Positions 42,953 to 57,233 of a DNA stretch of 64,000 nt are shown in pieces; the first letter of the stretch is position 1, and the number at the start of each line of letters is the position of its first letter. The notes below the pieces were generated by a model. The model saw nothing but the letters and a program-made list of their open reading frames with translations. It was not told the DNA's origin and did no database searches. Position numbers and translations under genes: made by a program. Origin of the DNA: Streptomyces orinoci (GTDB lineage Bacteria > Actinomycetota > Actinomycetes > Streptomycetales > Streptomycetaceae); assembly GCF_003121295.1 (NCBI RefSeq), contig NZ_PHNC01000012.1:124001-188000 (forward strand). The letters run 5' to 3'.

Positions 42953-43798
42953 GTGACAACGCAGGGGGAAAGCCGAGTGAACCAAGAGGACTTGACCGGC
43001 CGGGGATTCACGGCGCAGGAGATAGACACCAGCAGACCGCACCCGGCCCGGATGTACGACTACTATCTGGGCGGCCGGGACAATTACGAGGTGGACCGCC
43101 AGGCGGCGGAGAGCGTCATCCGGCTCGTCCCCGACGCCCGCCCCAGTGCCCGTGCCAACCGGGCCTTTATGCACCGCGCGGTCCGCGAGGTGGTACGGCG
43201 CGGAGTGCGGCAGATCATCGACATCGGCACCGGCATCCCCACCTCGCCCAACACCCATGAGGTGGCAAGGGAGTCGGCGCCGGACGCCAGGGTGGTCTAT
43301 ATCGACAACGACCCCATCGTGGCCACCCACGCGGGCGCCAAGCTCACCAACACCCCCGGCACCGGCTTTGTGCTGGCCGATGTCCGCGAGCCGGAGGCGA
43401 TCCTGGCCCACCCGGTGGTGCGGGAGCTGATCGACTTCGATCAGCCGGTGGCCCTGCTGCTGGTGGCCGTACTGCACTTCATCAAGGACGAGGAGGACCC
43501 GGCCGGCATCCTGGCCACCCTCGGCCAGGCCCTGCCGGCCGGCAGCTGTCTGGTGCTCACCCATGGTACGGGCGACTTCCACCAGCACATCGAGGGCGAT
43601 GCGGCCGACTTCTACAAGAACGCCACCGCCCAGCTGAGGGTGCGCAGCTTCGCCGAGTTCGTCCCCTTCTTCGACGGGTACGAGCTGCTCGAACCGGGCG
43701 TGGTCCAGGCGCCGTTGTGGCGGCCGGAGGGAGAGCCGCCCACGACGGAGGAGCTGGCCAGGGTGGCCTTCTACGCGGGGGTGGGGGTCAAGGAGTAA
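42953..43798 (+). CDS. SAM-dependent methyltransferase (PF04672 type)
   Basis: This is a 281-residue member of the actinobacterial S-adenosylmethionine methyltransferase family that begins with the HPARMYDYYLGGRDNYEVDR box. The SAM site is IIDIGTGIPTSPNTHEVA, then VVYIDNDPIVATHA. VALLLVAVLHFIKDEEDP is also typical. The substrate is unknown for the family. It follows the DUF397 gene closely, as is common. A second GTG at 42977 is an alternative start. Confidence 0.9.
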   Translation: MTTQGESRVNQEDLTGRGFTAQEIDTSRPHPARMYDYYLGGRDNYEVDRQAAESVIRLVPDARPSARANRAFMHRAVREVVRRGVRQIIDIGTGIPTSPNTHEVARESAPDARVVYIDNDPIVATHAGAKLTNTPGTGFVLADVREPEAILAHPVVRELIDFDQPVALLLVAVLHFIKDEEDPAGILATLGQALPAGSCLVLTHGTGDFHQHIEGDAADFYKNATAQLRVRSFAEFVPFFDGYELLEPGVVQAPLWRPEGEPPTTEELARVAFYAGVGVKE

Positions 43799-43812
43799 AT
43801 GCGGGCCGCCCC

Positions 43813-45021
43813 CTACCGCGTCAGCGAACGGGCCTGCGCGCCCACCCGCCGGACGCTCAGGCCCAGCGCCAGGGCGGCGGCCACTGCCGGCTGGACCACC
43901 GCCGGGGTCAGCGACGCCTGCGGCGAGACCACGCTCTGCCACAGCAGCGGCCCGGCCACGATGGTGCACAGCAGGGTGGGAGCCGTGTACCAGATGAGGA
44001 AGGGCAGCACCGCGTACCAGTCCAGCGAGCCATACAGCAGGTCGTAACGCATCCCGCCGCGGTAGGCCGTCATCAGCGCGGCCCCCACCGCGGCGGGCGC
44101 CCCCACCGTGGAGACCAGCGCCCACAACTGCCAGTCGGCGCCCGGCAGTCCGGCCAGCCGGGCAGTGGCCCAGGCGACGGCCGGCCCCAGCACACAGAGC
44201 ACGGCGGTGGGTACCGCGAAGTGGCTCAGGGGCACCGTCCGCGGGGCGAAGGGCAGCAGCCGGGTGCGGGTGAGGTTGTCGGTGTCCTGCCGGGCACCCT
44301 CGCTCAGTGCCGAGGCCGCCAGATACAGGGGCATCACCAGGACCCAGCCGAACAGCGCCGCCTGTGGAGCGCTCACCGCCGCATGGTGCGGGGAGTTCCC
44401 CCACTGCCGCATCAGATGCAGCAGCAGCACACCGGCCGCCGGCCACACCACGGCCGCCGCCGTACGAGCCGGCCGGTGCAGCAGCGCCACCGCGTCCCGC
44501 CATGGCAGCACCAGCCAGGCACCGCCCGCCGGAACGCCCGGCGAGAAGCGTGCCCGGCCCCGTCCGGCCCGGGCCACCGTCTGTGCCACCAGGGCGATTC
44601 CACGTATGCCCAACAGCGCCGCGCCCTGCCCGGCCCGCGAGCCGTGCCGGGCCCGGGTGGCGAGCTCCGCCGCCGGCAGGGACCCCAGCAGCCCGGCGGC
44701 GTACCCCAGCAGTGCCGCCCCGGTGCCCGCGGTCAGGGCCGGCACGGTGCCGGACGCGGCCGGGGCGCCCACGGCCCGCCCCGCCGCCGGCGCGATGCGC
44801 AGCACACCGGCCGCCACGACCAGCACGGCGACCAGGGTGAGCAGCGACTGCCACAGCCCGGACAGCCGGGGGCGCCCGGAGCGGTCGCGCCGGGCGCGGC
44901 GCGCCTCGCTCAGCGCCTCGGCGCCGGCGGCGGTCAGCTCCAGGCCCGCCTCCGGCGGCCCCGGCGCGGCGAACCGCGAACTCCGGCCGATCCGGGCCGA
45001 ATTGCCGTGCATTACCGCCAC
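43813..45021 (-). CDS. Polytopic membrane protein, ABC-exporter permease partner (DUF6297-like)
   Basis: This is a protein of 402 residues with about ten hydrophobic helices, for example WQSLLTLVAVLVVAAGVL and TVPLSHFAVPTAVLCVLGP. The start GTG 45021 overlaps the stop of the ABC ATPase gene by ten bases, so it is the membrane half of that transporter. I think it belongs to the DUF6297 group found next to such ATPases in Streptomyces, but it is shorter than the roughly 500 residues I recall. The substrate is unknown. Confidence 0.7.
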   Translation of the reverse strand: MAVMHGNSARIGRSSRFAAPGPPEAGLELTAAGAEALSEARRARRDRSGRPRLSGLWQSLLTLVAVLVVAAGVLRIAPAAGRAVGAPAASGTVPALTAGTGAALLGYAAGLLGSLPAAELATRARHGSRAGQGAALLGIRGIALVAQTVARAGRGRARFSPGVPAGGAWLVLPWRDAVALLHRPARTAAAVVWPAAGVLLLHLMRQWGNSPHHAAVSAPQAALFGWVLVMPLYLAASALSEGARQDTDNLTRTRLLPFAPRTVPLSHFAVPTAVLCVLGPAVAWATARLAGLPGADWQLWALVSTVGAPAAVGAALMTAYRGGMRYDLLYGSLDWYAVLPFLIWYTAPTLLCTIVAGPLLWQSVVSPQASLTPAVVQPAVAAALALGLSVRRVGAQARSLTR

Positions 45022-45632
45022 GGCGCCGCCTCCTCACCCAGCACGGCCGCAGGCCCGCCCTGGGCCGCACAGCGGCCCGAGGCCAGCAGCATCACCTGGT
45101 CGGCGACCGTCTCCACCAGCGCCCGTTCATGGGAGACCAGGACGATGCCGGTGCCCGCCCGTTTGGTCTCCCGCAGCACCTCGGCCAGCCGCTCCCTGGC
45201 GCGGGCGTCCAGGCGCTGCTCCGGCTCGTCCAGCAACAGCAGGCGGGCCGGGCGCACCAGGGCGGCGCTCAGCAGCAGGGCCTGGCGCTGCCCCGCGGAG
45301 AGGGTGTCGGGAAAGGCGCCATGACGGGCAGCCAGCTCCAGATGGTTGAGCACGGTGGCGGCGGCCCCGGCCGCCCGGCGGCCCAGACCATGGGCGGCGG
45401 CGACCATCCGGATGTGCTCGGCCACCGTCAGATCGGGGAAGCGCTCCCCGCCGTCCATGGCCACGGCCACATCGCGGCGGAATCCGGGATCCTGCTCACG
45501 CACCGGTGCGCCGTCGAAGAGCCCCCTGCCCTCGTCGGCCGTCTGCCGTCCGGCCGGCGCCCGCAGCAGGGTTGACTTTCCCGAGCCGTTGGCGCCGACC
45601 AGGGCGATACAACGGCCGGGATCCACCCGCAC
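45012..45632 (-). CDS. ABC transporter ATP-binding protein, N-terminally short
   Basis: This is an ATPase of 206 residues with Walker A GANGSGKST near residue 17, signature LSAGQ, Walker B LLLLDEPE and switch His in LVSHE. ABC ATPases normally have 30 or more residues before Walker A, including an aromatic residue that stacks on adenine. Here the frame upstream of GTG 45632 reads YAQHWFRSVPDSQKSK, unlike a family N-terminus, so the first beta strands are missing. It may be decayed or may start from a degenerate upstream segment. It forms an overlapping pair with the membrane protein. Confidence 0.75.
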   Translation of the reverse strand: MRVDPGRCIALVGANGSGKSTLLRAPAGRQTADEGRGLFDGAPVREQDPGFRRDVAVAMDGGERFPDLTVAEHIRMVAAAHGLGRRAAGAAATVLNHLELAARHGAFPDTLSAGQRQALLLSAALVRPARLLLLDEPEQRLDARARERLAEVLRETKRAGTGIVLVSHERALVETVADQVMLLASGRCAAQGGPAAVLGEEAAPWR

Positions 45633-45862
45633 CTTGCTTTTCTGCGAATCGGGTACGGAGCGGAACCAGTGTTGCGCATAGGGTGGTTGCAGGCTGTGGG
45701 AGGGGACCGGCAGCAGCCAGGAGCTTTCTCACCCCGCCCGTACCCCCTCCGAGCACGCACGGGCGCATGGCGCAAACCCCCGATCCCGGAAGTGAATTTC
45801 CGCGCCGGATGTCCTAATGTTCGTTTGGGTGACGACCGGTCACGCCGGGCGAGGAGGGGGCA

Positions 45863-46672
45863 GTGAGCGGGGTAGTGATCTATCTGCCGCCGGGAGTCGG
45901 CGACCACGGGGAGGAGCCCGACGGCGGGGTGACCCTGCGGCTCGGCGCGGGGGAGACGGCCCGGTTCGGGCGCGGCTCCGCGACAACCCCGGTGGAACTC
46001 CGGCTGATTGACGCGGCCATCTCCCGGCTGGCGGGGGAGATCCGGGTGACCGAGGACCACTGGCAGCTGAGCAACCACAGTACGACACAGAGCTATCTGG
46101 TGGAGAACCCGGAAGGTGCGGGGGAGTACCTCAGGGTGCCGCCCCGGCGGGCCGGAGCGCCCATCCCCTTCGAGTTCTCCCGTGTGGTGCTGCCCACCCG
46201 CCGGGACACCACGGTGGCCTTCCAGGTGTTCGCGCCCGACCACCTCTATATGGATCCGGACGCGGTGGGCGGCCATCGCGGGACCCGCACCGTGACGGCC
46301 TACTCCCTGGACGAGACGGCCATTTACTTCCTGGTGCTGGTCGCGCTCTGCGAACCCAGGCTGCGTGACGAGTCACCGCTGGCGGTGCCGACCACCCCGC
46401 AGATTGTCGAGCGGCTGCGGGCCCACCCCGCCTGCGCCCGGCTGACCGCCCGCGCGGTCAGCTCGCATATCGACTACCTCGCCGAGGAGAAGATGCGGAT
46501 CAGCGCCCCGGACGAGTACGGGCCCGCCCGGGGCGGCCGGCGCAACGGCAAGCGGGAATCGATCGTCGGACTCGCCCTGCGCTTCGGGCTCGTCAGGGAG
46601 GAACACCTCACCCTGCTGCCGCCCCGGACCGGAGGAGGCCATGGTGTCCATACCGGCCGACACCTCGGATGA
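45863..46672 (+). CDS. FHA-domain protein partnered with a Ser/Thr kinase
   Basis: This is a 269-residue protein. The first 100 residues have an FHA-like pattern: RLGAGETARFGRGS, then AISRLAGEIRVTEDHWQLSNHS, giving the GR and SxxH-like elements. FHA domains bind phosphothreonine. The C-terminal half contains a helical region (TPQIVERLRAHPACARLTARAVSSHIDYL) that looks like a winged helix. It overlaps the kinase gene by 32 bases, so it is probably a substrate or adaptor of that kinase. The start is GTG 45863 with GGAGG upstream. Confidence 0.8.
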   Translation: MSGVVIYLPPGVGDHGEEPDGGVTLRLGAGETARFGRGSATTPVELRLIDAAISRLAGEIRVTEDHWQLSNHSTTQSYLVENPEGAGEYLRVPPRRAGAPIPFEFSRVVLPTRRDTTVAFQVFAPDHLYMDPDAVGGHRGTRTVTAYSLDETAIYFLVLVALCEPRLRDESPLAVPTTPQIVERLRAHPACARLTARAVSSHIDYLAEEKMRISAPDEYGPARGGRRNGKRESIVGLALRFGLVREEHLTLLPPRTGGGHGVHTGRHLG

Positions 46673-48080
46673 CGACCGTACCGATGTGCTCCCGCCCGGC
46701 TACCGCCTGGGCCGCTGGGAGGTCACCGGCCAGATCGGCTCCGGCGGCTGGGCAACGGTCTACGCCGGGCGCCCGGTTGACGGAACAGACGCCGGAGAAG
46801 GGGAAGAGGTCGCGCTCAAGATCCTGCCGACCGCCGGGCTCGGCCCCAGCCAGGCCCGCAAGGTGGCGGACACCGCGCGCCGGGAGGTGGAACTCGGCCG
46901 CCGCACCGGCCACCCCAGGCTGATCCGCCTGCTGGAGTCGCTGGTGCTCAGCGACCCCCGATACCCCTTGCTGGACGGCGCCATTGTGCTGGTGATGGAA
47001 CGGGCCGCGGACAGTCTGCGGACGCTGCTGGCCGCCGGGGTGAGTGAGGACGAGGCCGCCGGGCTGTTCACCGGAATCTGCGAGGGGCTGGCTCATCTGC
47101 ACCGCAGCGGGTGGGTGCACGGGGACCTCAAACCGGACAACGTCCTGGTCATGGCCGATGGTTCGGTCAGGCTCTCCGACTTCGGGCTGGCCACCGAACT
47201 CACCGGCACCCATGGCACCCACGGCTATGCACCCCCGATGGGCACCCTGGACTATCTGCCGCCCGAGCGCTGGAAGGCCCCGCTGGGCGAACACGGCGTA
47301 AAGGTCCGGCCCAGCGCCGACATCTGGGCCCTGGGCATCATGATTCATGAAGCCTTCGCCCATGGCGCCGCCCCCTTCCCCGGCGCCACCCCGGCCGCCC
47401 GAGGCGCCGCCGTCCAGGAGTACGCCGAGGGGCGCGCCCCGCTGCGCCTGTCCGGCGAACTCCCCCCGTTCTGGCGTGAGCTGGCCGCAGACTGCCTGGC
47501 CCCCACCCATGCCGAGCGCGGCGCCCACACCGCCGAGAGCCTGCTGGCCCGTATCAACGGCCGGCCGGACGGCACCGCGTCGGCGGCCGGTGCCGCAATC
47601 CGCCGCCGGAGATGGCTGGTTCGTTCCACGGTGCTGGCCGCCGCGGGCTGCGGGGCGGCCGCCGCCATCTGGTCGTACGCCCTGCCCGGCAACGCACATG
47701 ACCACCCGGCCGCAGTGGGCTCCACCGGCAGCGCCTCCCAGTCGGCGGGCAGCATCCGGGTGTTCAACATCGAGCAGAGCTGCCGGCAGCGCAACGACCG
47801 CAGTCCGCAGTGCAGTCTGGGCCTGGCCATCGACCCCCTGCAGCCCTACACCATCGACAATGTGGTGCCCACCCGGGTCTGGCACGGCGATGTCCTGCCC
47901 GTGGACTGCCGGCTGCCCAAGGGCATTCCCATCATCGACGAGGCCGGCACCGAGTCCGCGCAGTGGTTCCGGGTCCGGCTGCCGGAGGGTTCCAGGCGGA
48001 CCACGGCCTGGCTGCCGGCCGTCCGTACCCAGGACCGTCCCGCGGTCCCCGAGTGCCCCCGCCCCACGCCCCTGAGGTGA
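46641..48080 (+). CDS. Membrane-anchored serine/threonine protein kinase (PknB-like)
   Basis: This is a Hanks-type kinase of 479 residues. Residues 20-300 form the kinase domain: glycine loop GQIGSGGWATVYAG, ATP Lys in EVALKIL, catalytic loop HGDLKPDN, metal DFG in LSDFGLA, and APE-like PPERW. A single membrane helix follows (VLAAAGCGAAAAIWSYAL near residue 335). An extracytoplasmic domain of about 120 residues contains two Cys (EQSCRQ and QCSLG) and a beta-rich region. There are no PASTA repeats. It is translated from within the end of the FHA gene. Confidence 0.93.
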   Translation: MVSIPADTSDDDRTDVLPPGYRLGRWEVTGQIGSGGWATVYAGRPVDGTDAGEGEEVALKILPTAGLGPSQARKVADTARREVELGRRTGHPRLIRLLESLVLSDPRYPLLDGAIVLVMERAADSLRTLLAAGVSEDEAAGLFTGICEGLAHLHRSGWVHGDLKPDNVLVMADGSVRLSDFGLATELTGTHGTHGYAPPMGTLDYLPPERWKAPLGEHGVKVRPSADIWALGIMIHEAFAHGAAPFPGATPAARGAAVQEYAEGRAPLRLSGELPPFWRELAADCLAPTHAERGAHTAESLLARINGRPDGTASAAGAAIRRRRWLVRSTVLAAAGCGAAAAIWSYALPGNAHDHPAAVGSTGSASQSAGSIRVFNIEQSCRQRNDRSPQCSLGLAIDPLQPYTIDNVVPTRVWHGDVLPVDCRLPKGIPIIDEAGTESAQWFRVRLPEGSRRTTAWLPAVRTQDRPAVPECPRPTPLR

Positions 48081-48187
48081 GACGGGCCGCCCGCCACCGC
48101 CCCGGAACGTTCCGGATGTCCCGGCCGCCGCCCGCGCGGCTACTTTTCGGGCCGTCCAACGTCATTCCCGGATGAAGGAGCGGTGGC

Positions 48188-49238
48188 GTGCCTGGCCCAG
48201 CCGCACGACGCGGAAGATGCGGAAGACTGAGAACGATGACCCTGCTGGCCATGGCGGCCGTGTCCGCCCTGGCCCAGCCCGCCTGGGCGCAGCCCGCCGG
48301 CCGGATACCCGGCCCCCTGGGCCACAAGGCACCGGCCACGGCCAAGGCCACCGCGGACTGCTACATCCCCCCCGGACCGGGACATCGCGGTGACCCGCAA
48401 GGTCTATGAGGTCGGCCAGCGCCGCAATGTCTCCGACAAGGTGATGCCGGCCGGCTTCGAGACCGGCTGGATCGAATCCCGGATGAACAACCTGGACTGC
48501 GGCGACCGCGACTCCCTCGGCGTCTTCCAGCAACGGCCCTCCCAGGGCTGGGGAACCCGCGAGCAGATCCTCGACGTGGACTACGCGGCCAATAAGTTCT
48601 TCGAGGTCGCCCAGCAGATGGAGCCGGGGATGGAGGGCAGCACCGCGGGACAGCTCGCCCAGGCCGTCCAGCGCTCCGCCTACCCCCTGAAGTACGACCA
48701 GGTGGAGGGCACCGCCCGGGAGCAGCGGGAGGAGGCCCGGCAGCCCTACGGCACCATCGGCGCCAAGTACGACAGCCTGGGCGGCCGCGGTGGGGTACTG
48801 GGCCCGCCGGTCCGGGCCGAGGAGGACTCCTCGCTGGGCGGCCGCTTCCAGCTCTTCCAGAACGGGATCATCATCTGGCACCCGGATACGGCCTTCGCCG
48901 TCTACGGCGACATCCTGGCCAAGTTCTGGGCCACCGACGCCGAACGGCACTGGGGCTTCCCGACCATGGACGAGGCCGGCGCGGCGGCGGCACCGGATGG
49001 CACCAAGGGCCGCTACCAGGTCTTCGAGCGGGGGCTGTTCCTGTGGTCGCCGCAGACCGGCGCCCATCCCCTGCAGGGCGCGGTCTATGACGCGTTCCAG
49101 GGCGCGGGCCGCGAGAAGGCACTGGGCTACCCGCTCACCGACGAGACCGACGAGCCCGGCGGCAGCAAGGCCCAGCGCTTCCAGAACGTCACCATCCACT
49201 GGACCGCCGCCAAGGGCACCTGGATCACCAAGAACTGA
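48188..49238 (+). pseudogene. Secreted LGFP-repeat protein interrupted by a C-tract frameshift
   Basis: The start is GTG 48188 with AAGGAG seven bases upstream, followed by a signal peptide (MTLLAMAAVSALAQPAWAQ). The frame runs to CYIPPG and would stop at 48409. The true continuation, DRDIAVTRKVYEVGQRRNVSDKV, lies in another frame from 48375 on. Removing one C from the run of seven C at 48367-48373 restores CYIPPDRDIAVTRKV. The rest is intact: an N-terminal domain (FETGWIESRMNNLDCGDRDSLGVFQQRPSQGWG) and three LGFP-type repeats between residues 190 and 345 that would bind cell-wall polymers. It is either a real frameshift, slippage regulation or a sequencing error. Confidence 0.75.
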
Positions 49239-49257
49239 ACTCGCATCAGGAGGATGT

Positions 49258-50259
49258 GTGTTGAGCGAGAACCGTCCCAGCCGCAGGAGCATGCTGAAGG
49301 CCGCCGGCGGACTCTCCGCGGCGATGGCCCTGGGCGCCGGAGGTGTGCTGGGCTCGGCGTCCTCGGCGAGCGCCGCCGACGACGGCTTCGGGCTGCGCAT
49401 CGTGGAACGCGGCGAGAGCGATCCCCGTATGTGGTACTACCGGTTCAGCACGCCCGAGATCGGCTGGAACCCGGCCGTCAATGTGCTGCTGCCCGACGAC
49501 TACCACACCAGCGGGCGCACCTATCCGGTGCTCTATCTCTTCCACGGCGGCGGCACCGACCAGGACTTCATCACCTTCGACCGGCTGGGCATCCGGGACT
49601 GGACCGCCGGCAAGCCGATCATTGTGGTGATGCCGGACGGCGGGCACGCGGGCTGGTACTCCAACCCCGTCACCTCCAACGTCGGCCCCCGAAACTGGGA
49701 GAGCTTCCATATCAACCAGCTGATCCCCTGGATCGACGCCAACTTCCGGACCTTCGCCGAGTACGACGGCCGTGCCGTCTCCGGGTTCTCCATGGGCGGC
49801 TTCGGCGCGCTGAAGTACGCGGCCAAGTACTACGGCCACTTCGCCTCGGTGAGCGCCCACTCCGGCCCGGCCAGCCTGCGCGGCACGGTCGCCGGAATCC
49901 CCGGCGCGGTGGTCCACTGGGCCAATGCCTCCTCCGCGGCCATCGAGCTGGGGGGCGGGACGGTCTATGGCGTGCCCTGGGATGAGAACCGCGTCAATAT
50001 GGACAACCCCTGCCAGCGGCTGGACAGTTACCGCAACAAGCGGCTCTTTATGGTCGCGGGGACCAGTCCCGAGCCGATCAACTGGTTCGACACCATGAAC
50101 GAGGTCGGTGTGCTGCAGACCCAGCGCGAGTTCCGCGGCCTGCTGGACCGGGCCGGGATCCCCTTTGAATGGCATGAGGTGCCGGGCGGGCACTTCGTCC
50201 GGCCGGATCTGTTCCAGAACGATCTGGATGGGATCATCGACCGCCTGCGCAAGGCGTAG
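49258..50259 (+). CDS. Tat-exported alpha/beta hydrolase (esterase D / antigen 85-like)
   Basis: This is a secreted esterase of 333 residues. A Tat signal SRRSMLKAAGG is followed by a hydrophobic stretch ending SASAAD. The fold has LYLFHGGGTDQDFITF (oxyanion), the nucleophile Ser in GFSMGGFGAL, and the final His in VPGGHFVRPDLF. It is of the putative esterase group that includes mycolyltransferase antigen 85 and feruloyl esterases. AGGAGG lies just upstream; GTG 49258 and TTG 49261 are both possible starts, and TTG has the better spacing. A perfect 12-bp terminator follows. Confidence 0.9.
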   Translation: MLSENRPSRRSMLKAAGGLSAAMALGAGGVLGSASSASAADDGFGLRIVERGESDPRMWYYRFSTPEIGWNPAVNVLLPDDYHTSGRTYPVLYLFHGGGTDQDFITFDRLGIRDWTAGKPIIVVMPDGGHAGWYSNPVTSNVGPRNWESFHINQLIPWIDANFRTFAEYDGRAVSGFSMGGFGALKYAAKYYGHFASVSAHSGPASLRGTVAGIPGAVVHWANASSAAIELGGGTVYGVPWDENRVNMDNPCQRLDSYRNKRLFMVAGTSPEPINWFDTMNEVGVLQTQREFRGLLDRAGIPFEWHEVPGGHFVRPDLFQNDLDGIIDRLRKA

Positions 50260-50274
50260 GCGGGCTGTGCGGAG

Positions 50275-50303
50275 GGGTGCCGGGCCGGGCCGGCCCGGCA
50301 CCC
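50275..50303. terminator. Bidirectional terminator after the esterase gene
   Basis: This is a perfect 12-bp stem, GGGTGCCGGGCC and its complement, with a 5-base loop. It sits between convergent genes that stop at 50259 and 50306. Confidence 0.85.
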
Positions 50304-50305
50304 GT

Positions 50306-50734
50306 TCACCGATTCCGGTTGCGCAGCGCGGACTTGACCGCATAGGCCACCGGCGGAACGCACAGCATAAAGAGCCAGTCGCCGGTGGCGGCGGTCAGGC
50401 CCACGGCGGCCGCCCCGCCCAGCGGGAGGACGGCCCGGCGCAACCGCTCCCCGGTGGTCGGGGCCGTACCCTCCGGTACCGCAACCTCACTCCCGCTCGA
50501 CGGCTGCCCGAACGGCCGGGGCTCCGGCAGGTCACCGAAGACGGCCAGCACCTCGTCCCGGGTCACCGCGGACTGGACGGCCGCGAGCCGTTCGCCGTAT
50601 TCGTCGATGGTCAGCCGGCCGGCTCTGCTGTGTTCGGTCAGGGCCTCCGTGGCCTGCTCACGCTCTTGATGACCGATGCGGATGCCGGTTGCGGGGAGCC
50701 GGGAGTCGGTGGAATCGCTCACGGAGTTGATCAT
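50306..50734 (-). CDS. DUF1707 (SHOCT-like) domain protein
   Basis: This is a 142-residue protein with an N-terminal DUF1707 domain: IGHQEREQATEALTEHSRAG, then LTIDEYGERLAAVQSAVTRDEVLAVFGDLP. A C-terminal hydrophobic segment (LGGAAAVGLTAATGDWLFMLCVPPVAYAV) probably anchors it in the membrane. The family is common in actinobacteria with unknown function. The start is ATG 50734, or GTG 50722. It is divergent, by only 40 bases, from the truncated alkB copy. Confidence 0.85.
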   Translation of the reverse strand: MINSVSDSTDSRLPATGIRIGHQEREQATEALTEHSRAGRLTIDEYGERLAAVQSAVTRDEVLAVFGDLPEPRPFGQPSSGSEVAVPEGTAPTTGERLRRAVLPLGGAAAVGLTAATGDWLFMLCVPPVAYAVKSALRNRNR

Positions 50735-50773
50735 ATTCGGCCTGCGGCTCTCCTCCCGAACATAATGGAACGG

Positions 50774-50989
50774 ATGAATGAAGGGCTGTTCCCCCGGCAG
50801 GAGGCGGAGATCGCACCCGGTGCCGTCCATGTGCCGGACTGGCTCGACCTCGGCGCCCAGCGCGAGCTGCTCACCGCCTGCCGGGAGTGGGCGCGGCCGC
50901 CGGCCGGCCTGCGGACGGTGCGGATGCCCGGCGGGGGCGCCATGTCGGTGCGGCAGGTGTGCCTGGGGTGGTACTGTGTAACCGCATGA
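50774..50989 (+). pseudogene. Stranded 5' fragment of alkB
   Basis: This encodes the first 66 residues of an AlkB-type dioxygenase (MNEGLFPRQEAEIAPGAVH to MSVRQVCLGW) and then YCVTA and a stop. The same segment, with seven residue changes and many silent changes, begins the complete alkB gene at 55189. This fragment keeps the high GC3 of the host and its own upstream region next to DUF1707, so it is the original 5' end of the gene, cut off by insertion at about 50971. Confidence 0.85.
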
Positions 50990-51112
50990 TGCTGACCCAC
51001 CGGCCTGGCCTGTCCCGACGAGCCGTGCCTGTCTCGGAGCCGTAGAACCCGGCGTCTACCCGCCGCGATGGCTGGGCCATCAGAACCACACGACCAGTAC
51101 CGAGGTCGTAAC

Positions 51113-51137
51113 GGCCCGCAAAGGAAACCGGCGGGCC
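51113..51137 (-). terminator. Hairpin downstream of the 792-residue gene
   Basis: GGCCCGC (51113-51119) and GCGGGCC (51131-51137) are perfect complements with an 11-base loop. It lies 28 bases past the stop of the minus-strand gene. Confidence 0.5.
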
Positions 51138-51164
51138 GCCATAAAACATCGAGGCCGGGATCGA

Positions 51165-53543
51165 TCAGTCCAGGATCGTCTCCTGAGACTCCTCGGATTC
51201 CGGATCACCTTCCTCCGACACATAGATCTCCATGGTCCTGCGTCGGAAGTTCTCTACGTCGGTCAGAATGCCGACCAGCAGTTTGTGCAATTCATCTAGC
51301 TGGTCCACCGGGACGATCGGGGTATGGCCCCCGACTTCCGGCTCCAGGGTGTGCAGATGGTCGAGGGCGTCCCGGGCGCCTTGCACCCCGAGGTAGAGGG
51401 CCTTACGGTGGGCGGCGGCGCGCTGGCTGGGAGGCACCGGAGTGTCTTCGCTCTGGGGAGCCGTCACTGGGACAACGGGCAGAGCACCCTCAGCCCACTG
51501 ATCAGCGCCGTACTGGAACAGTGTCGTCACTGGGTTCATGGTGACGGGCGTCTCGCCGGGAGAGGCGCTGGTGGAGGCGCCGCCGTCTGCTGTCGCCGTC
51601 TCACCGTTCGACGAGGGCGCGGCCGGCCCTGGGACTGTACGGATGACCGCCGAGAGTGGCACGGCCTTCGCCGCGCGGTTCGGGTCTGAGGCCGCGACGA
51701 CATCCCACTCGTACAGCCGCACTGGCACACCGTCGGCGTCACGGGCGATGCGGTCTGGGGCGTCGAGATCGACCTTGAAGTACACGTAGGGCGGCTCTGC
51801 GGAAGCGGCTGATTCCTTGCCGGTGAGGCTCTGCTTCGGCACGGAATTCTGCGGCAAATCGTCGCTGCGGAACGTGTTGGCTGCCAACGCGAGGGTCCAC
51901 AGACCGAGTTCGTTCGCTGGCGATGAGAGCCCTTCGATGACCTTGTTCACGTCCGAGCGGAAGGGGACGCCGCCCTTCTCTCTTTTGGCGCCCAGCGACG
52001 AGCCGACGTTCCTGGTCAGGAGCTTGTCGGCGATCAGTGCGACACCGCCGGCCACAGCCAGGGTACGGCGTGCGTCGTCGTCGCCGTTCATCGCCGGTGC
52101 GATCAGCTTGGTGAAGTCGTCGGTGGGGCGTGGAGTCCAGCCCTGGGTGACGTCGTTCGACAGCACGCCACCGTTGTTCCACGCGTTGCGTGCCTGCTTG
52201 GTGACGAGTTTCTTCTTCGCCCGCCAAGGCAGATCGATGATCGGCCCGAGCAACTCGCCGAATCCCTTCATACTCATCCGCTGGCCGCCCTTGATGGCCT
52301 TGGCTTGGTCCTTGAGAAGTTCCAGGAGATCCGGCTGCGTTAGGGCGCTAACCAAGTAGACGGCACGCCACAGGGCCGTTCCGGTAGGGGCCGAATCGCG
52401 TCCGAATACCTGCGGAAGCTTGGCCACGGGAATGCGTCCGACGGCAAGGCCATAAACCGCCTGGAGATCGGCCGTGTTCCAGCGTGGGTCGCCCTGCTGG
52501 ATGATTCGCTTCAGGGCTCGGGTGATGACCTCGACGTTCTGAGCTGCGGCGTCCCACTGCTTGAACTCGACGTGTACTGAGGCCAGTACGGAACGGATGG
52601 CGTCGTCGAAGATGTCCTCGGGAGACAGCACCTGGCCGTCGTGTCCATCAACCCCGACGGCGATCTGTGCCGGAACGACGTAGGACTGGGCGATCTGAGC
52701 AGCCCGAAGGCCTGGCGTCGCTCCCTTCATCTCGTCATCGAACTCCTTCCGTAGTCCCTGCCACCACCGCGCCCGGCTGGCAGCCAGCTGCTGGCCGAGA
52801 TCAGGACCGGCAGTCGTCCCTGCCGCAAAAGCGCTGCCGAGTAGTGCGTCGGTGGCCAGGTCGGCCACCTCCGAGGGTTCGACGCCATGCCCGGCCAGTA
52901 CCGCCCAGGCGCTGGCGAGCCGGGTAATGCCGTCACGAACGACGAGAACGGGGAACGGCTTCGTACCGTCCTCGAAGGCAATCTCGGCAGGATGGGTAAT
53001 CAGGTTGCGGCTGACGGAGCGTGTGAGAATGGAGGCCGCATAGTTGTTGAGCGAGAGCGTCGCGTGGATGGTCTGCCACACGTGGTTCCGTAGGTGAGTG
53101 AGGTTCTCATAGCGGTACTGCAAGATCGCACTGGGACGGCCCTCATGAGTTATCCCGTGCACCTGTGGGTCGGCTACCTCTGAGACCTCCATACTGGTAC
53201 GAGGCTGGGGGCCGGGAAACAGTTCGCTCAGCAGGACCCGGGTGACGACGGAGTGCAGCGTCGCCCCCTCGACGTTTTCGACGGTCAGGAGACCCGAGAG
53301 CTCATCCGATGTCGGCCGGAGCTGAACTGCCAGTGCTTCGGGTTTAGTCGTGGCGCGCGCCAAGATGCCCCACGCAGTGTCCGGCAGCCAGGTGCTTGTA
53401 TTGGCCCGACCAGCCGCAGTCACCGCCGCGATATTGCTGTCCGTTGAGTCGGAAGGTAGGCGGGGCGAAATGTTAGTTACCCGGACCATGTCCGCCCCCC
53501 AGGGGACGTCAATGGAAAGGACTGCGGGTGTGTCGGTGGTCAT
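51165..53543 (-). CDS. Unrecognised 792-residue island protein with a DGxxR motif
   Basis: I do not recognise a family for this large soluble protein. It has no signal peptide or membrane helix. The first 240 residues include RRENLTHLR-like THEGRPSAILQYRYENLTHL, then HPAEIAFEDGTKPFPVLVV, followed by RDGITRLASAW at residues 203-213. The stretch is reminiscent of the DGQHR/ParB-like motif of DndB and ParB-fold proteins. The middle is helical (AKAIKGGQRMSMKGFGELLG). A Ser/Gly/Thr-rich linker near residues 645-680 precedes a C-terminal helical domain with an acidic tail (EEGDPESEESQETILD). The ATG has GGAG about ten bases upstream. It is the main cargo of the alkB island, so an anti-phage or maintenance role is possible but unproven. 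Confidence 0.7.
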   Translation of the reverse strand: MTTDTPAVLSIDVPWGADMVRVTNISPRLPSDSTDSNIAAVTAAGRANTSTWLPDTAWGILARATTKPEALAVQLRPTSDELSGLLTVENVEGATLHSVVTRVLLSELFPGPQPRTSMEVSEVADPQVHGITHEGRPSAILQYRYENLTHLRNHVWQTIHATLSLNNYAASILTRSVSRNLITHPAEIAFEDGTKPFPVLVVRDGITRLASAWAVLAGHGVEPSEVADLATDALLGSAFAAGTTAGPDLGQQLAASRARWWQGLRKEFDDEMKGATPGLRAAQIAQSYVVPAQIAVGVDGHDGQVLSPEDIFDDAIRSVLASVHVEFKQWDAAAQNVEVITRALKRIIQQGDPRWNTADLQAVYGLAVGRIPVAKLPQVFGRDSAPTGTALWRAVYLVSALTQPDLLELLKDQAKAIKGGQRMSMKGFGELLGPIIDLPWRAKKKLVTKQARNAWNNGGVLSNDVTQGWTPRPTDDFTKLIAPAMNGDDDARRTLAVAGGVALIADKLLTRNVGSSLGAKREKGGVPFRSDVNKVIEGLSSPANELGLWTLALAANTFRSDDLPQNSVPKQSLTGKESAASAEPPYVYFKVDLDAPDRIARDADGVPVRLYEWDVVAASDPNRAAKAVPLSAVIRTVPGPAAPSSNGETATADGGASTSASPGETPVTMNPVTTLFQYGADQWAEGALPVVPVTAPQSEDTPVPPSQRAAAHRKALYLGVQGARDALDHLHTLEPEVGGHTPIVPVDQLDELHKLLVGILTDVENFRRRTMEIYVSEEGDPESEESQETILD

Positions 53544-54497
53544 GGGTATGGATCTCCAATGTGGTTCGGAGTGGTTTGCTGCGATTGCGAGTTACGTGAA
53601 CTCGCTGTACGGATTACTGCGTCAAAGGTTTTGACCGAAACCGCCCTGTCTGCCCAGGATAATTCAGATGGAAGTCGGGTTGACCTGTAGCTCACATTTG
53701 GGTAGAACCGGTGTTGGTAAGCGGTGTAAACCTCGGGTTTTGTGGGTGCCAGAAACAGCAGACCTCGGTTGCCGGGTAGAGAAGAGCCGTCAATGCAGGC
53801 GATTCCGAGGCAGGGGATCAAAGTTCGAACTGTGCGTCATGAGGTGGTACCAGGTGCCACGGGCTGGTATGCATGGAGGGCAAGCCGCCGAGGATCATCC
53901 GACGAGCGATGTAAACAACTAGTTGAGAACGCCTTGTTTGGCCTGCTGGGGAGTGCCGCTTGGCTATGCGGGCAATGAGCTGCTTTGTGAGCTTAACTAG
54001 TCTTGCGGCGAGCTGTTCGCTTACCGGTAACGGCACCCACGCAATCTTGGAGTTGGCGACCTTTATGTGCGTGGCATATCGTCCTCGTGGCCAGCCCATT
54101 GAGTACGGTGTGGGCCTTGCCGCAGGGATGCGTAATCGGCCATCTAAGGGGGAGATCCACTTATATCGACTTCTCGGGATTCCCCTACGTGTCGGTTCAG
54201 GTGCGCACATCTTCCCAAGCCTATAGCCGTCTGGAGGCACCGACGATGAAGGGGGGATCCTCACACGGATGGGTTATTTCTTCGGTATTGCTCATCCAGG
54301 GCTCCTGGGCAGTGCCATTGCCTCCGAGGCAAGGATGATGGGACGCCGCTGGCGTGATATCGGCGCTCGCTTGGCATCACCGTATACATGAGCCACAGCC
54401 ACGTGTGGTCGCTTTCTGGCCTGCACTCATCCTGGGCGCAGTATATACGTCCGATGCTGTACGCACCGCGCAGGAGTCAAACGCGTCATTTCTACGC
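53544..54497. other. Island interior without a clear gene
   Basis: This stretch of 954 bases has visibly lower G+C than the host and mixed codon quality. The best frame is on the minus strand at 53818-54264 (148 residues, with VPLPVSEQLAARLVKLTKQLIARIAKRH), in the same direction as both island genes. I cannot identify it and it may be a remnant. A plus-strand frame at 54003-54338 covers the same DNA and is less likely. The repeat GAGTT-ACGTG-AACTC lies at about 53590-53605, near the promoter region of the 792-residue gene. Confidence 0.35.
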
Positions 54498-54836
54498 TCA
54501 GCTCAAGTCGCCCTTTGCTCGCGGGTAGTTGGCGAAGATCTGAGGGAGAGGGCTTAGCCCGAGCTTGTCCAGATGTGCCAGGGCGGCGGCGACGGCTGCG
54601 ACTTCGCCAAGGACACTGTCGCGCTGGATGATCCAAACAAACTCGTTCTCTGATGTCGGTAATATGCGAGGAAGGGTGGTTAGTCCGATTCGTTCGAACT
54701 CATCGCTAATCTTCGCGCACAACTCGGAGCTGAGTCTGGCTCGTTCCGGTGCTGCGTGCTTCTTGATGAAGCGCATAGACAAGCGCTTGATGCCGTGATC
54801 GACCTCGACGGCGTGCCTGATAATTGTGAAGTCCAT
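54498..54836 (-). CDS. Unknown 112-residue island protein
   Basis: This is a small soluble protein with a believable sequence: MDFTIIRHAVEVDHGIKRLS, then KKHAAPERARLSSELCAKISDEFERIGL, and a C-terminal helical stretch VLGEVAAVAAALAHLDKLG. No family is recognised. It has no membrane segment. An AT-rich stretch (TTAGTAATTTACTGAAATAG at 54841-54860 region) directly upstream looks like its promoter. It is on the same strand as the 792-residue gene and may act with it, although 950 bases separate them. Confidence 0.55.
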   Translation of the reverse strand: MDFTIIRHAVEVDHGIKRLSMRFIKKHAAPERARLSSELCAKISDEFERIGLTTLPRILPTSENEFVWIIQRDSVLGEVAAVAAALAHLDKLGLSPLPQIFANYPRAKGDLS

Positions 54837-55188
54837 AACTTAGTAATTTACTGAAATAGTAACTGAGTTGGGAAGGGTGGAGCCCGGACCCGCTTCAGGG
54901 GAGAGGTGGATCTGAGGCGTCGGCGGTGTAGTCAAGCGGCTGAAGATCGCAACACATCGCTCATGTCGACGCGCCCTCGTGCGCCTGGTGGTTGCTGCCC
55001 TTCCATATGGTCAAGGGTGGTAACCAAAGAGGAAGGCCGCCCGTCAATCGGGTGGGCGCTCTTGAAGGTTGCAGAAGATCACAACCCATGTGCACCGGAA
55101 TCAGGTGTTTGCGCAACCGCAGATTGGTGCGACGCCGCTCACCGGCGACGTTTCCCAGCAGTAGGGGTCAGCTGCGAACATGGGAGCG
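54837..55188. other. Island right-end non-coding region with a short repeat
   Basis: No gene is seen here. GAAGATCGCAACACAT at 54942-54957 recurs as GAAGATCACAACCCAT at 55074-55089 (14 of 16 identical). An imperfect hairpin GCCGCCCG/CGGGTGGGC lies near 55037-55058. The region must hold the promoter now used by the intact alkB. Confidence 0.4.
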
Positions 55189-55920
55189 ATGGAAGACGGA
55201 TTGTTCCCGCGCGACCGAGCGGAGATCGCCCCCGGCGCCGTTCACGTTCCGGACTGGCTCGATCTCGACGCCCAGCGCGAACTGCTCGCGGCCTGTCGGG
55301 AGTGGGCACGGCCACCGGCGGGGCTGCGGACGGTGCGTACGCCCGGCGGGGGCGCCATGTCAGTACGGCAGGTTTGCTTGGGCTGGCATTGGGCCGTGGT
55401 GCCCCGCTGCCCGAACTGCGGGAAATCGGTACGGGAAAATCCGCAGTGCCCCGGGTGGCACTGGTATCCGTACGGCTATGCCCGCACCGTGGTGGACGGT
55501 GACGGCGCCCCCGTCAAACCCTTCCCGCCACGGCTGGACCGGCTGGCCCGGGATGCGGTGGCCCGGGCGTACGGCCGGCCCGCGGGGGCGGAGGCGTATG
55601 ACATCGCGCTGGTCAACTTCTATGACGCCGACGCCAGGATGGGACTGCACCGGGACAGCGACGAACGGTCGGACGCCCCGGTGGTCTCGCTCAGCCTGGG
55701 AGACTCCGGGATCTTCCGGTTCGGCAACACCGAGGGACGCCACCGCCCTTGGACGGATCTGGAACTGCGCAGCGGCGACCTGATCGTCTTCGGGGGACCC
55801 TCCCGGCTCGCCTATCACGGGGTGACCCGGATCATCCCCGGCACCGCACCCGCCGGGCTGGGGCTCACCGGGCGGCTGAACATCACCCTGCGGGTCAGCG
55901 GACTGGCGCCCGGGCCCTGA
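55189..55920 (+). CDS. alkB: Alpha-ketoglutarate-dependent dioxygenase AlkB
   Basis: This DNA-repair dioxygenase removes alkyl groups from N1-methyladenine and N3-methylcytosine. It is 243 residues. The iron site has the HxD motif in LHRDSDE and the distal His in AYHGVTR; the oxoglutarate Arg lies in LNITLR. FYDADARMGLHRD and GDLIVFGGPSRLAYHG are typical. A Cys pair in PRCPNCGKS may bind zinc. The start is ATG 55189; ATG 55180 would add three residues. Residues 1-66 have AT-richer codons and are a diverged second copy of the fragment at 50774, brought by the island. The rest is host sequence. Confidence 0.93.
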   Translation: MEDGLFPRDRAEIAPGAVHVPDWLDLDAQRELLAACREWARPPAGLRTVRTPGGGAMSVRQVCLGWHWAVVPRCPNCGKSVRENPQCPGWHWYPYGYARTVVDGDGAPVKPFPPRLDRLARDAVARAYGRPAGAEAYDIALVNFYDADARMGLHRDSDERSDAPVVSLSLGDSGIFRFGNTEGRHRPWTDLELRSGDLIVFGGPSRLAYHGVTRIIPGTAPAGLGLTGRLNITLRVSGLAPGP

Positions 55921-56090: not shown

Positions 56091-57233
56091 GTGTCCGGCT
56101 TCCGCTCGCTCAGCTCCCCGCTAGACGCCCTGCGCCCGGCCGCGTTCGGCGCCGATCCGGCCGGGGAGCGGCTGGCCCGGATCAGACGGTCGCCCAACTT
56201 CGCGGACGGGGTGTTCGTCAACCCGATGGCCGCCGCCCGGAAGCCCTCCGGCTCGATGCTGAAGTATCTGCCCACCTACTTCCGCAAGGAGGAGCGCGCC
56301 CGGCGCACCCCCGGCCACCCCATCCCGGTCCACCCGACCACCGTGGCCGATCTGGCCGTTCCCGCCGTCTCCGGGCTCCGGCTCACCTGGATGGGACACT
56401 CCAGCGTGCTCGCCGAGATCGACGGCCACCGGGTGCTCTTCGACCCGGTCTGGTCCGAGCGCTGCTCACCCTTCGGCTTCGCCGGTCCCCGGCGCCTGCA
56501 CCCGGTGCCGGTCCCGCTGGCCGAGGTGGGACGGGTGGACGCGGTGATCATCTCGCATGACCACTACGACCACTTGGACATGCCGACCGTCCGCGCCCTG
56601 GCCCGCCTGGGCACGGCCTTTGTGGTGCCGCTGGGCGTGGGGGCACACCTGGAGCACTGGGGCGTACGCCCGGCCCTGATCACCGAGCTGGACTGGCATG
56701 AGTCCACCACCGTAGGCGAGTTGACGCTCACCGCCACCCCGGCCCGGCACTTCTGCGGCCGGGCGCTGCGCAATGTCCAGCACACCCTGTGGGCCTCCTG
56801 GGTGGTCGCCGGTCCCGAGCACCGGATCTTCCACAGCGGGGACACCGGATACTTCCCCGGCTTCGCCGGAATCGGGGCGCAGTACGGGCCGTTCGACGCC
56901 ACCATGGTGCAGGTCGGGGCGTATTCGGAGTTCTGGCCCGACATTCATATGACCCCGGAGGAGGGCATCCGGGCCCATCTGGACCTGGGTGGCGGGCTGA
57001 TGATGCCCATCCACTGGGGGACCTTTGTGCTGGCGCCCCATCCCTGGGCGGACCCGGCCGAGTTGAGCGTGGCCGCCGCCCGGGAGGCCGGGACGCGGTG
57101 TGCGGTACCGCGCCCCGGGCAGCCCTTTGAACCGGCCGAAGGACTGGAGCCGGACTACTGGTGGGCCCCGCCGGGCTCGGGCGCGGAGCCGGTGCCCGTA
57201 CCGGCCCCGCCGCTGCCCGTCCCGGCGGCCTGA
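56091..57233 (+). CDS. MBL-fold metallo-hydrolase (UlaG/NAPE-PLD-like)
   Basis: This is a metallo-beta-lactamase-fold hydrolase of 380 residues. The metal motif SHDHYDHLD gives HxHxDH. Further ligands are probably His in ARHFCGRAL, Asp in HSGDTGYFPGF and His in MMPIHWGTF. The long N-terminal part (MAAARKPSGSMLKYLPTYFRK) and ESTTVGELTLTATPARHF match the NAPE-PLD-like lipid phosphodiesterase branch. There is no signal peptide. The start is GTG 56091 with GGAGG six bases upstream. It converges on the amidohydrolase gene with four bases between the stops. Confidence 0.9.
   Translation: MSGFRSLSSPLDALRPAAFGADPAGERLARIRRSPNFADGVFVNPMAAARKPSGSMLKYLPTYFRKEERARRTPGHPIPVHPTTVADLAVPAVSGLRLTWMGHSSVLAEIDGHRVLFDPVWSERCSPFGFAGPRRLHPVPVPLAEVGRVDAVIISHDHYDHLDMPTVRALARLGTAFVVPLGVGAHLEHWGVRPALITELDWHESTTVGELTLTATPARHFCGRALRNVQHTLWASWVVAGPEHRIFHSGDTGYFPGFAGIGAQYGPFDATMVQVGAYSEFWPDIHMTPEEGIRAHLDLGGGLMMPIHWGTFVLAPHPWADPAELSVAAAREAGTRCAVPRPGQPFEPAEGLEPDYWWAPPGSGAEPVPVPAPPLPVPAA

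Follow-up and report, generated by a model that had tools for sequence, protein, structure and literature searches.

Here we present an analysis of an alkB gene that occurs with two 5′ ends in the genome of Streptomyces orinoci (NCBI RefSeq assembly GCF_003121295.1). The gene lies in a stretch of 64,000 nucleotides (contig NZ_PHNC01000012.1, positions 124,001 to 188,000 of the forward strand), which is part of a 7.5 Mb genome and is referred to as the window; all coordinates are window positions. A truncated copy of the alkB 5′ end is followed, after about 4.4 kb occupied by a three-gene cassette, by a diverged second copy which runs on into a complete gene. Tentatively, and somewhat short of calling it probable, we read this arrangement from the sequence as the entry of a cassette together with an allele swap by homology-driven recombination between related alkB genes, with no specialised integrating element. 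If this is true, no recombinase is needed for a foreign cassette to invade a repair gene, and the gene survives the event while a loop of its enzyme is altered. The insert-bearing AlkB allele and the unnamed cassette, found near known defence genes in three loci, are testable leads.

The duplicated 5′ end of alkB

The two copies form a direct repeat (50,765-50,976 and 55,180-55,391) of 212 nt with 82% identity, 4415 bp apart, which corresponds to alkB codons 1-71; CGAACAT precedes both as a further shared stretch (at 50,757 and 55,175). An earlier note on this DNA had claimed a duplication of 66 codons, and the duplication is thereby confirmed over a slightly longer segment. The left copy (N) is a stub, likely the resident 5′ end (50,757-50,989, + strand), with its ATG at 50,774 and homology to codon 69-71, after which it reads ...MSVRQVCLGWYCVTA*, turning unrelated for several codons before it stops at 50,989; it dead-ends, as had been said. 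The second, likely foreign 5′ end (N′; 55,175-55,386, + strand) is the AT-richer one, also in agreement with the note: GC at third codon positions (GC3) is 60/64 (0.94) in the left copy and 51/64 (0.80) in the right one (Fisher p 0.035). The DNA between the copies does look foreign, its GC content in 500-bp windows being 55-68% versus 68-77% outside.

The right copy continues into a complete alkB of 246 aa (55,180-55,920, + strand), whose 3′ half is continuous with the downstream gene as in relatives. The replacement 5′ end thus leaves the target gene with an open frame, and the product matches Pfam 2OG-FeII_Oxy_2 (E 1.2e-42, 146.7 bits against a cut-off of 31.2). H157-x-D159 and H213, which we take to be AlkB ligands, are present. 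The open frame and the conserved ligands suggest that the right-hand alkB is alive, and it is in this conditional form that the earlier claim of a DNA-repair gene kept alive by the element can stand. The protein stays below the NCBIfam AlkB equivalog cut-offs (103.1 versus 267 bits and 85 versus 231.05), so its cellular role is putative.

Between N and N′, 22 codons differ silently and 6 by residue (Nei-Gojobori method, NG86: non-synonymous distance, dN, 0.06; synonymous distance, dS, 0.709). In a simulation, 16 random changes gave at most 6 residue changes in 0.4% of trials, and the dS between the copies falls within the range found among six clade genomes (0.12-0.87 over 15 pairs). Since the differences are mostly silent, both copies diverged under selection as working genes. 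Such selection is not expected on a stub, and the two copies must therefore have been brought together after diverging.

The locus in related genomes

Each species is represented by a single comparison genome, most of them with 75-82% identity at the alkB locus, so the closest sister is absent from the set. Fifteen syntenic relatives (G413, G342, G280, G258, G297, G035, G060, G051, G560, G601, G653, G715, G550, G731 and G631) were chosen by best match of alkB, of the downstream gene or of a neighbouring amidohydrolase, and form a clade sample, not a random one. In the fetched stretches all 15 have a single alkB which is open to its own end, lacks the 24-codon insert described below and has no cassette beside it.

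The locus is anchored on the left by an open reading frame (ORF) which is presumably a methyltransferase-like gene (42,953-43,798, + strand), and on the right by a gene presumed to encode a metallo-beta-lactamase-fold (MBL) protein (56,256-57,233, + strand). A homologue of the former is upstream of alkB in 15/15 relatives, and the MBL gene lies 3′ of alkB as in the window. Homology to these genomes ends on the left at 50,976-50,984 and starts again on the right at 55,446-55,453. It had been proposed that the junctions be defined against strains with an intact alkB, and that the presence of the intervening DNA in such strains would speak for a mere tandem duplication; this DNA is absent from all 15.

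Further to the left, about 7 kb of Streptomyces-like DNA (43,799-50,731) separates the methyltransferase-like gene from the stub. It contains a DUF1707 gene (Pfam) and, presumably, transporter, FHA, kinase and esterase genes. The block is missing at the locus in all 11 relatives compared, and its 45.8-50.3 kb part is found as one block elsewhere in G258 and in G035 (4.4 kb match).

The 24-codon insert of the complete gene

Alignments with other AlkB proteins reveal in the right-hand gene a stretch with an in-frame insert of 24 codons (72 nt; 55,387-55,464, + strand), which carries C77, C80, C90 and H94 in the motif C-X2-C-X9-C-X3-H and is positioned where the left copy ends. The ends of the insert are ambiguous, WHW being repeated on both sides. 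Because of the 24 extra codons most AlkB match the right protein in two pieces, residues 1-71 and then about 90 onward. The insert may bind zinc, and it presumably lies by the nucleotide-recognition lid of AlkB.

Among 100 genomes, 62 of them with a match, only G033 and G003 match straight through besides the window. When 14 stretches were fetched for a straight-through match at the DNA level, the insert was present in 8 (at least 7 genomes) and in none of the other 6. The eight (L084-L091) are insert-type alleles. No stub lies beside any of them in the 8-20 kb of DNA fetched for each, and whole-genome protein searches of G033, G003 and G133 gave one alkB 5′ copy each. Over the seven insert alleles aligned, from which G302 and the second G235 copy were omitted, the two first Cys, the third Cys and the His are invariant; G302 has one residue fewer there, in the spacing that separates the last Cys from the His. 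G235 has two near-identical insert-type copies (L086 and L087) on different contigs, one with its frame broken by a 1-base gap, and the pair may be a matter of assembly.

In the trees of either gene half the insert alleles are dispersed over the branches, and G086 and G302 have such an allele at this very locus, with the same upstream genes and no cassette. The insert is, on these comparisons, a natural alkB allele. A near-repeat of 14/17 bp at the two junctions (50,960-50,976 and 55,447-55,463) has its source in the WHW at the insert ends, which belongs to the natural allele, and therefore gives no evidence of an attachment (att) site. The possibility that the insert is an integration scar was also considered and is weakened by its scatter over the branches, its occurrence at the locus without a cassette and its divergence, which is roughly like that of the rest of the gene; G033, G291 and G235 are somewhat more alike in the insert (0.88-0.93) than in the 5′ half (0.80-0.85). 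Titles and the starts of abstracts, among the matches listed in a literature search, contained nothing on a bacterial AlkB insert allele with zinc or lid.

Proposed origin of the two 5′ ends

Several comparisons point to the left copy as native and the right copy as foreign, an assignment which we regard as no more than moderately supported. The copies differ at 32 sites, and there all seven syntenic relatives covered by the alignment (7/7) agree more with the left copy (12-16 versus 7-9 sites), while other genomes favour left in 26/50. The silent distance to the right copy exceeds that to the left in 6/6 relatives, and third-position identity to the 15 relatives is 0.58 for the left copy, 0.51 for the right and 0.59 for the 3′ half. 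In trees, the two copies are sisters (support 0.894), and the syntenic clade stands next to them (0.765); the 3′ half is placed within a clade of 22 which contains all 15 syntenic rows (0.909). As for the replacement 5′ end asserted by the earlier note, it is a diverged sequence and no fresh duplicate, and it completes the right-hand gene; the foreign origin attributed to it is favoured by silent sites and codon usage and not by residue-changing sites.

The two junctions are unlike. The right one lies inside homology, running into the 3′ half and the MBL gene as in relatives, while the left one is abrupt. Such unlike junctions, a 5′ end that looks foreign and an island in which no recombinase was recognised are consistent with acquisition through homologous recombination at one end and an illegitimate join at the other. 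The incoming segment would have carried the cassette and, downstream of it, the 5′ portion of a related alkB with the insert, and homology would have driven its recombination into the resident gene. At the right-hand junction the exchange would have used homology within alkB, at the insert or beyond it, which brought the foreign 5′ end in frame with the resident 3′ half. On the left, a non-homologous join at codon 69-71 would have cut off the resident 5′ end as the stub; as a guess, the abrupt end by the insert site may be the edge of homology where pairing stalls. An ordinary AlkB would thereby have been turned into a probably active hybrid with a zinc-knuckle-like loop, which we suppose to be placed next to the lid.

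A number of observations weigh against this reading. No donor carrying the cassette together with this alkB 5′ end was found. The stub ends within about 2 codons of the insert, which by our own estimate has a chance of about 2%, and a random left end explains nothing of it. The closest tip to the 3′ half is a non-syntenic genome (L038; support 0.822), and of six relatives four have a smaller dN to the right copy than to the left, one shows no difference and one has a larger dN. At nine GC-neutral sites the relatives show no preference for the left copy, a regression of N identity on 3′-half identity over 57 genomes did not separate the copies, and there is no GC3 switch within the right gene (permutation p 0.36). 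Moreover, insert alleles occupy this locus in G086 and G302, and insert alleles in general are less similar to the clade in their 5′ than in their 3′ part (5′ minus 3′ similarity averages -0.053, with a range of -0.124 to -0.011, and is -0.087 for the right copy). The right copy may on this account be native throughout.

The cassette and its relatives

The cassette core (51,162-54,918), over nearly all of which loci L011, L014 and L015 align, is bordered by a left flank (50,977-51,161) and a right flank (54,919-55,174) with no match in 168 fetched loci. It holds, all on the - strand, a gene for a 792-aa protein (51,165-53,543), a broken middle gene (53,648-54,295) which is distributed over several frames with stops and whose counterpart in L014 is an open 226-aa frame, and a gene for a 112-aa protein (54,498-54,836), the conserved partner of the 792-aa gene in cassette loci. 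Since the middle gene is broken over several frames, the cassette of the window may be dead.

The cassette proteins of the window have no match in Pfam, PADLOC or NCBIfam. In particular, no recombinase was recognised among the three island ORFs, as the earlier note had also stated; the scan covered these ORFs, and the rest of the window and genome was not scanned for integrases. The 792-aa protein has no match in PDB and weak ones only in PHROGs (best E 0.12), and Pfam applied to 20 sequences of its family gave two families with one member each (E 0.037 and 0.064). An AlphaFold2 model of it has a mean pLDDT (predicted local distance difference test) of 38.6. Its RDGITRLASA stretch is reminiscent of ParB/DGQHR-type motifs.

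The cassette recurs in Streptomyces. The 792-aa gene is present in 14 loci of genome contigs and is accompanied by the 112-aa gene in 13 of them; in the remaining one (L019) the match starts 85 bases from the contig start. None of the 14 has alkB beside the cassette. A tRNA scan of nine loci placed tRNA-Pro(CGG) upstream in five (L011, L012, L014, L015 and L018) and tRNA-Thr in L020, with no tRNA in three. Repeats surround the cassette in L011 (47 bp) and L014 (54 bp at 80%). Genes next to the cassette in L012 and L015 score above the Pfam cut-off for a LacI helix-turn-helix and below that for Phage_integrase; with this weak match in mind we presume them to be integrases, and a third suspected integrase piece, in L011, had no match.

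Nine neighbour proteins, chosen by the author from four cassette loci, were compared with PADLOC, whose models were matched by six and not by the other three. Of the six, two are from L014, namely a fragment of a cyclic-oligonucleotide-based antiphage signalling system (CBASS) cyclase and a protein of the pPIWI type; L011 contributes a type IV restriction protein and L018 three type I-E Cas proteins. The three-gene cassette (112, about 226 and 792 aa; L011-L024) is a candidate defence or accessory module.

In phage records neither the cassette nor this alkB 5′ end was found, and viral contigs held no relative of the cassette protein. The full alkB query retrieved from viral contigs one diverged, uninterrupted alkB (L112), and the 5′-half query, for which two short patterns only were used, gave no match there. 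Plasmid records contained three distant cassette relatives, and an alkB 5′ match in four; two of these four were inspected and are uninterrupted, without the insert. Distant relatives of the 792-aa protein, at 26% identity, are L115 and L116, which come from a Tsukamurella plasmid and from a linear one filed under Kutzneria/Streptomyces.

Rfam gave no match on 50,700-55,500, and with no tRNA at the right end either, a tRNA as the right-end target was rejected. Single-strand folds at the junctions are no better than those of shuffled sequences.

Alternative explanations

Another explanation, which we consider unlikely but by no means negligible, reverses the roles of the copies: the right-hand insert-allele alkB would be the resident one, and about 11.4 kb (43.8-55.17 kb), with the alkB 5′ fragment of a related strain and the cassette, would have entered upstream of it, on the near side of the methyltransferase-like gene. 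In one version, a circle with a 3′-truncated piece of alkB would have integrated by a single crossover, for which a recombinase is unnecessary and which yields a truncated copy beside a full one. The insert alleles found at the same locus without a cassette in G086 and G302 fit this course of events, as do the 7 kb upstream block, which is also extra in the window, and the residue-changing distances, which slightly favour the right copy. It has to contend, however, with GC3 and silent sites, by which the left copy is the one closer to the syntenic relatives, and with the DUF1707 gene upstream of the stub, an unusual neighbour for alkB (weak matches in 4/77 upstream regions); the end of the stub at the insert site would remain a matter of chance.

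That coincidence would be accounted for if a site-specific integrative element, acting like the dusA islands or SXT in prfC, used alkB codons 69-71 as its attB, brought a replacement 5′ end with a linker and has since lost its integrase, a course which we hold to be doubtful and less likely still. The stub ending within about 2 codons of the insert start, the near-repeat at the two junctions, the cassette relatives that sit by tRNA-Pro with flanking repeats or integrase-like genes, and an anatomy like that of the dusA islands (PMC4482086) all speak for it. Against it stands the lack of a recognised integrase among the three ORFs of the insertion. The near-repeat is also present in insert alleles without an element, and there is no att duplication. 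The earlier note's element with its own attachment site is thus not borne out, the near-repeat being a feature of the natural allele and the cassette lying away from alkB at the 14 other loci.

Recurrence of the event would also be expected to show up as further split genes, and a search for similar split alkB loci with different cargo, as the note had proposed, found no second one of this kind among 61 and 213 matching genomes. In all 61 other genomes with a match (100 searched), the 5′ and 3′ pieces of alkB are adjacent or form one continuous match. In a search of 249 genomes, 213 had a match at E 1e-12, with one 5′ copy in 208 and two in five; the open-frame column of this search is no test for a stub, as the window's own stub shows a long frame. 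The five are the window and four genomes of another genus, which hold a second alkB. The second alkB of G522 (L174) lacks its middle, and that of G610 (L175) breaks off near codon 63, no 3′ half being seen within 8 kb. Remnants of alkB therefore exist elsewhere, but none was seen with this cassette or at this codon. The literature search brought up no paper on alkB as attB with an integrase in Streptomyces, and nothing, in titles and the starts of abstracts, on an island-truncated Streptomyces alkB of this kind.

It is improbable that an old tandem duplication of alkB in the lineage was followed by loss of the 3′ half of the first copy, the cassette being inserted between the two. Such a history would predict that the two 5′ ends group most closely with one another, as they do, but their dS of 0.71 reaches the level found between clade species, with both copies under selection, and one alkB only is found in the stretch fetched from each of the 15 syntenic relatives. 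A family of mobile elements that lands at the lid codons of alkB and at every entry swaps in a zinc-knuckle version of the lid borne at the element's end, the insert alleles of other Streptomyces being scars of elements since lost through recombination between the duplicated 5′ ends, seems very improbable, and a recent tandem duplication was rejected on the dN and dS between the copies.

Relation to known systems

Islands and prophages in dusA split the gene near its start, leave a 5′ remnant and supply a new 5′ end, with a dedicated integrase found in more than 200 genomes (PMC4482086). The alkB locus shares with them the split near the start, the 5′ remnant and the new 5′ end; it differs in having no recognised integrase or recurrent site, and in that its new 5′ end adds a 24-codon loop. 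SXT/R391 integrative and conjugative elements integrate in the 5′ end of prfC, a process driven by an integrase with nearly identical attP and attB (PMC2791158). Insertion in the 5′ end of a conserved gene is common to both cases, whereas the alkB junctions have no nearly identical att repeat. SXT integration presumably yields a hybrid prfC product as well.

Closer in mechanism are the displaced effectors and orphan immunity arrays of type VI secretion systems (T6SS), for which one-sided homology with a non-homologous join, displacing the old gene, is proposed (PMC5361080). In both instances the proposal is that one-sided homology adds a foreign module and displaces a piece of the old gene; what is kept is an immunity gene in the T6SS case and, at the alkB locus, a stub from the 5′ end of a repair gene. 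The mechanism that we propose for the two unlike alkB junctions is homology-facilitated illegitimate recombination, which has been described in species with natural competence and, at low frequency, in conjugation of E. coli (PMC3240628). The Streptomyces tRNA-Pro loci (L011, L012, L014, L015 and L018) carry the same cassette core, but by tRNA-Pro and not in alkB, with a flanking repeat in L011 and L014 and an integrase-like gene in L012 and L015. Integration into the 5′ end of a gene is thus already known, with a new 5′ end in dusA, and the integrase-free kind is known as a proposed mechanism from T6SS. Because the mechanism envisaged for alkB resembles these cases, we consider it of moderate interest.

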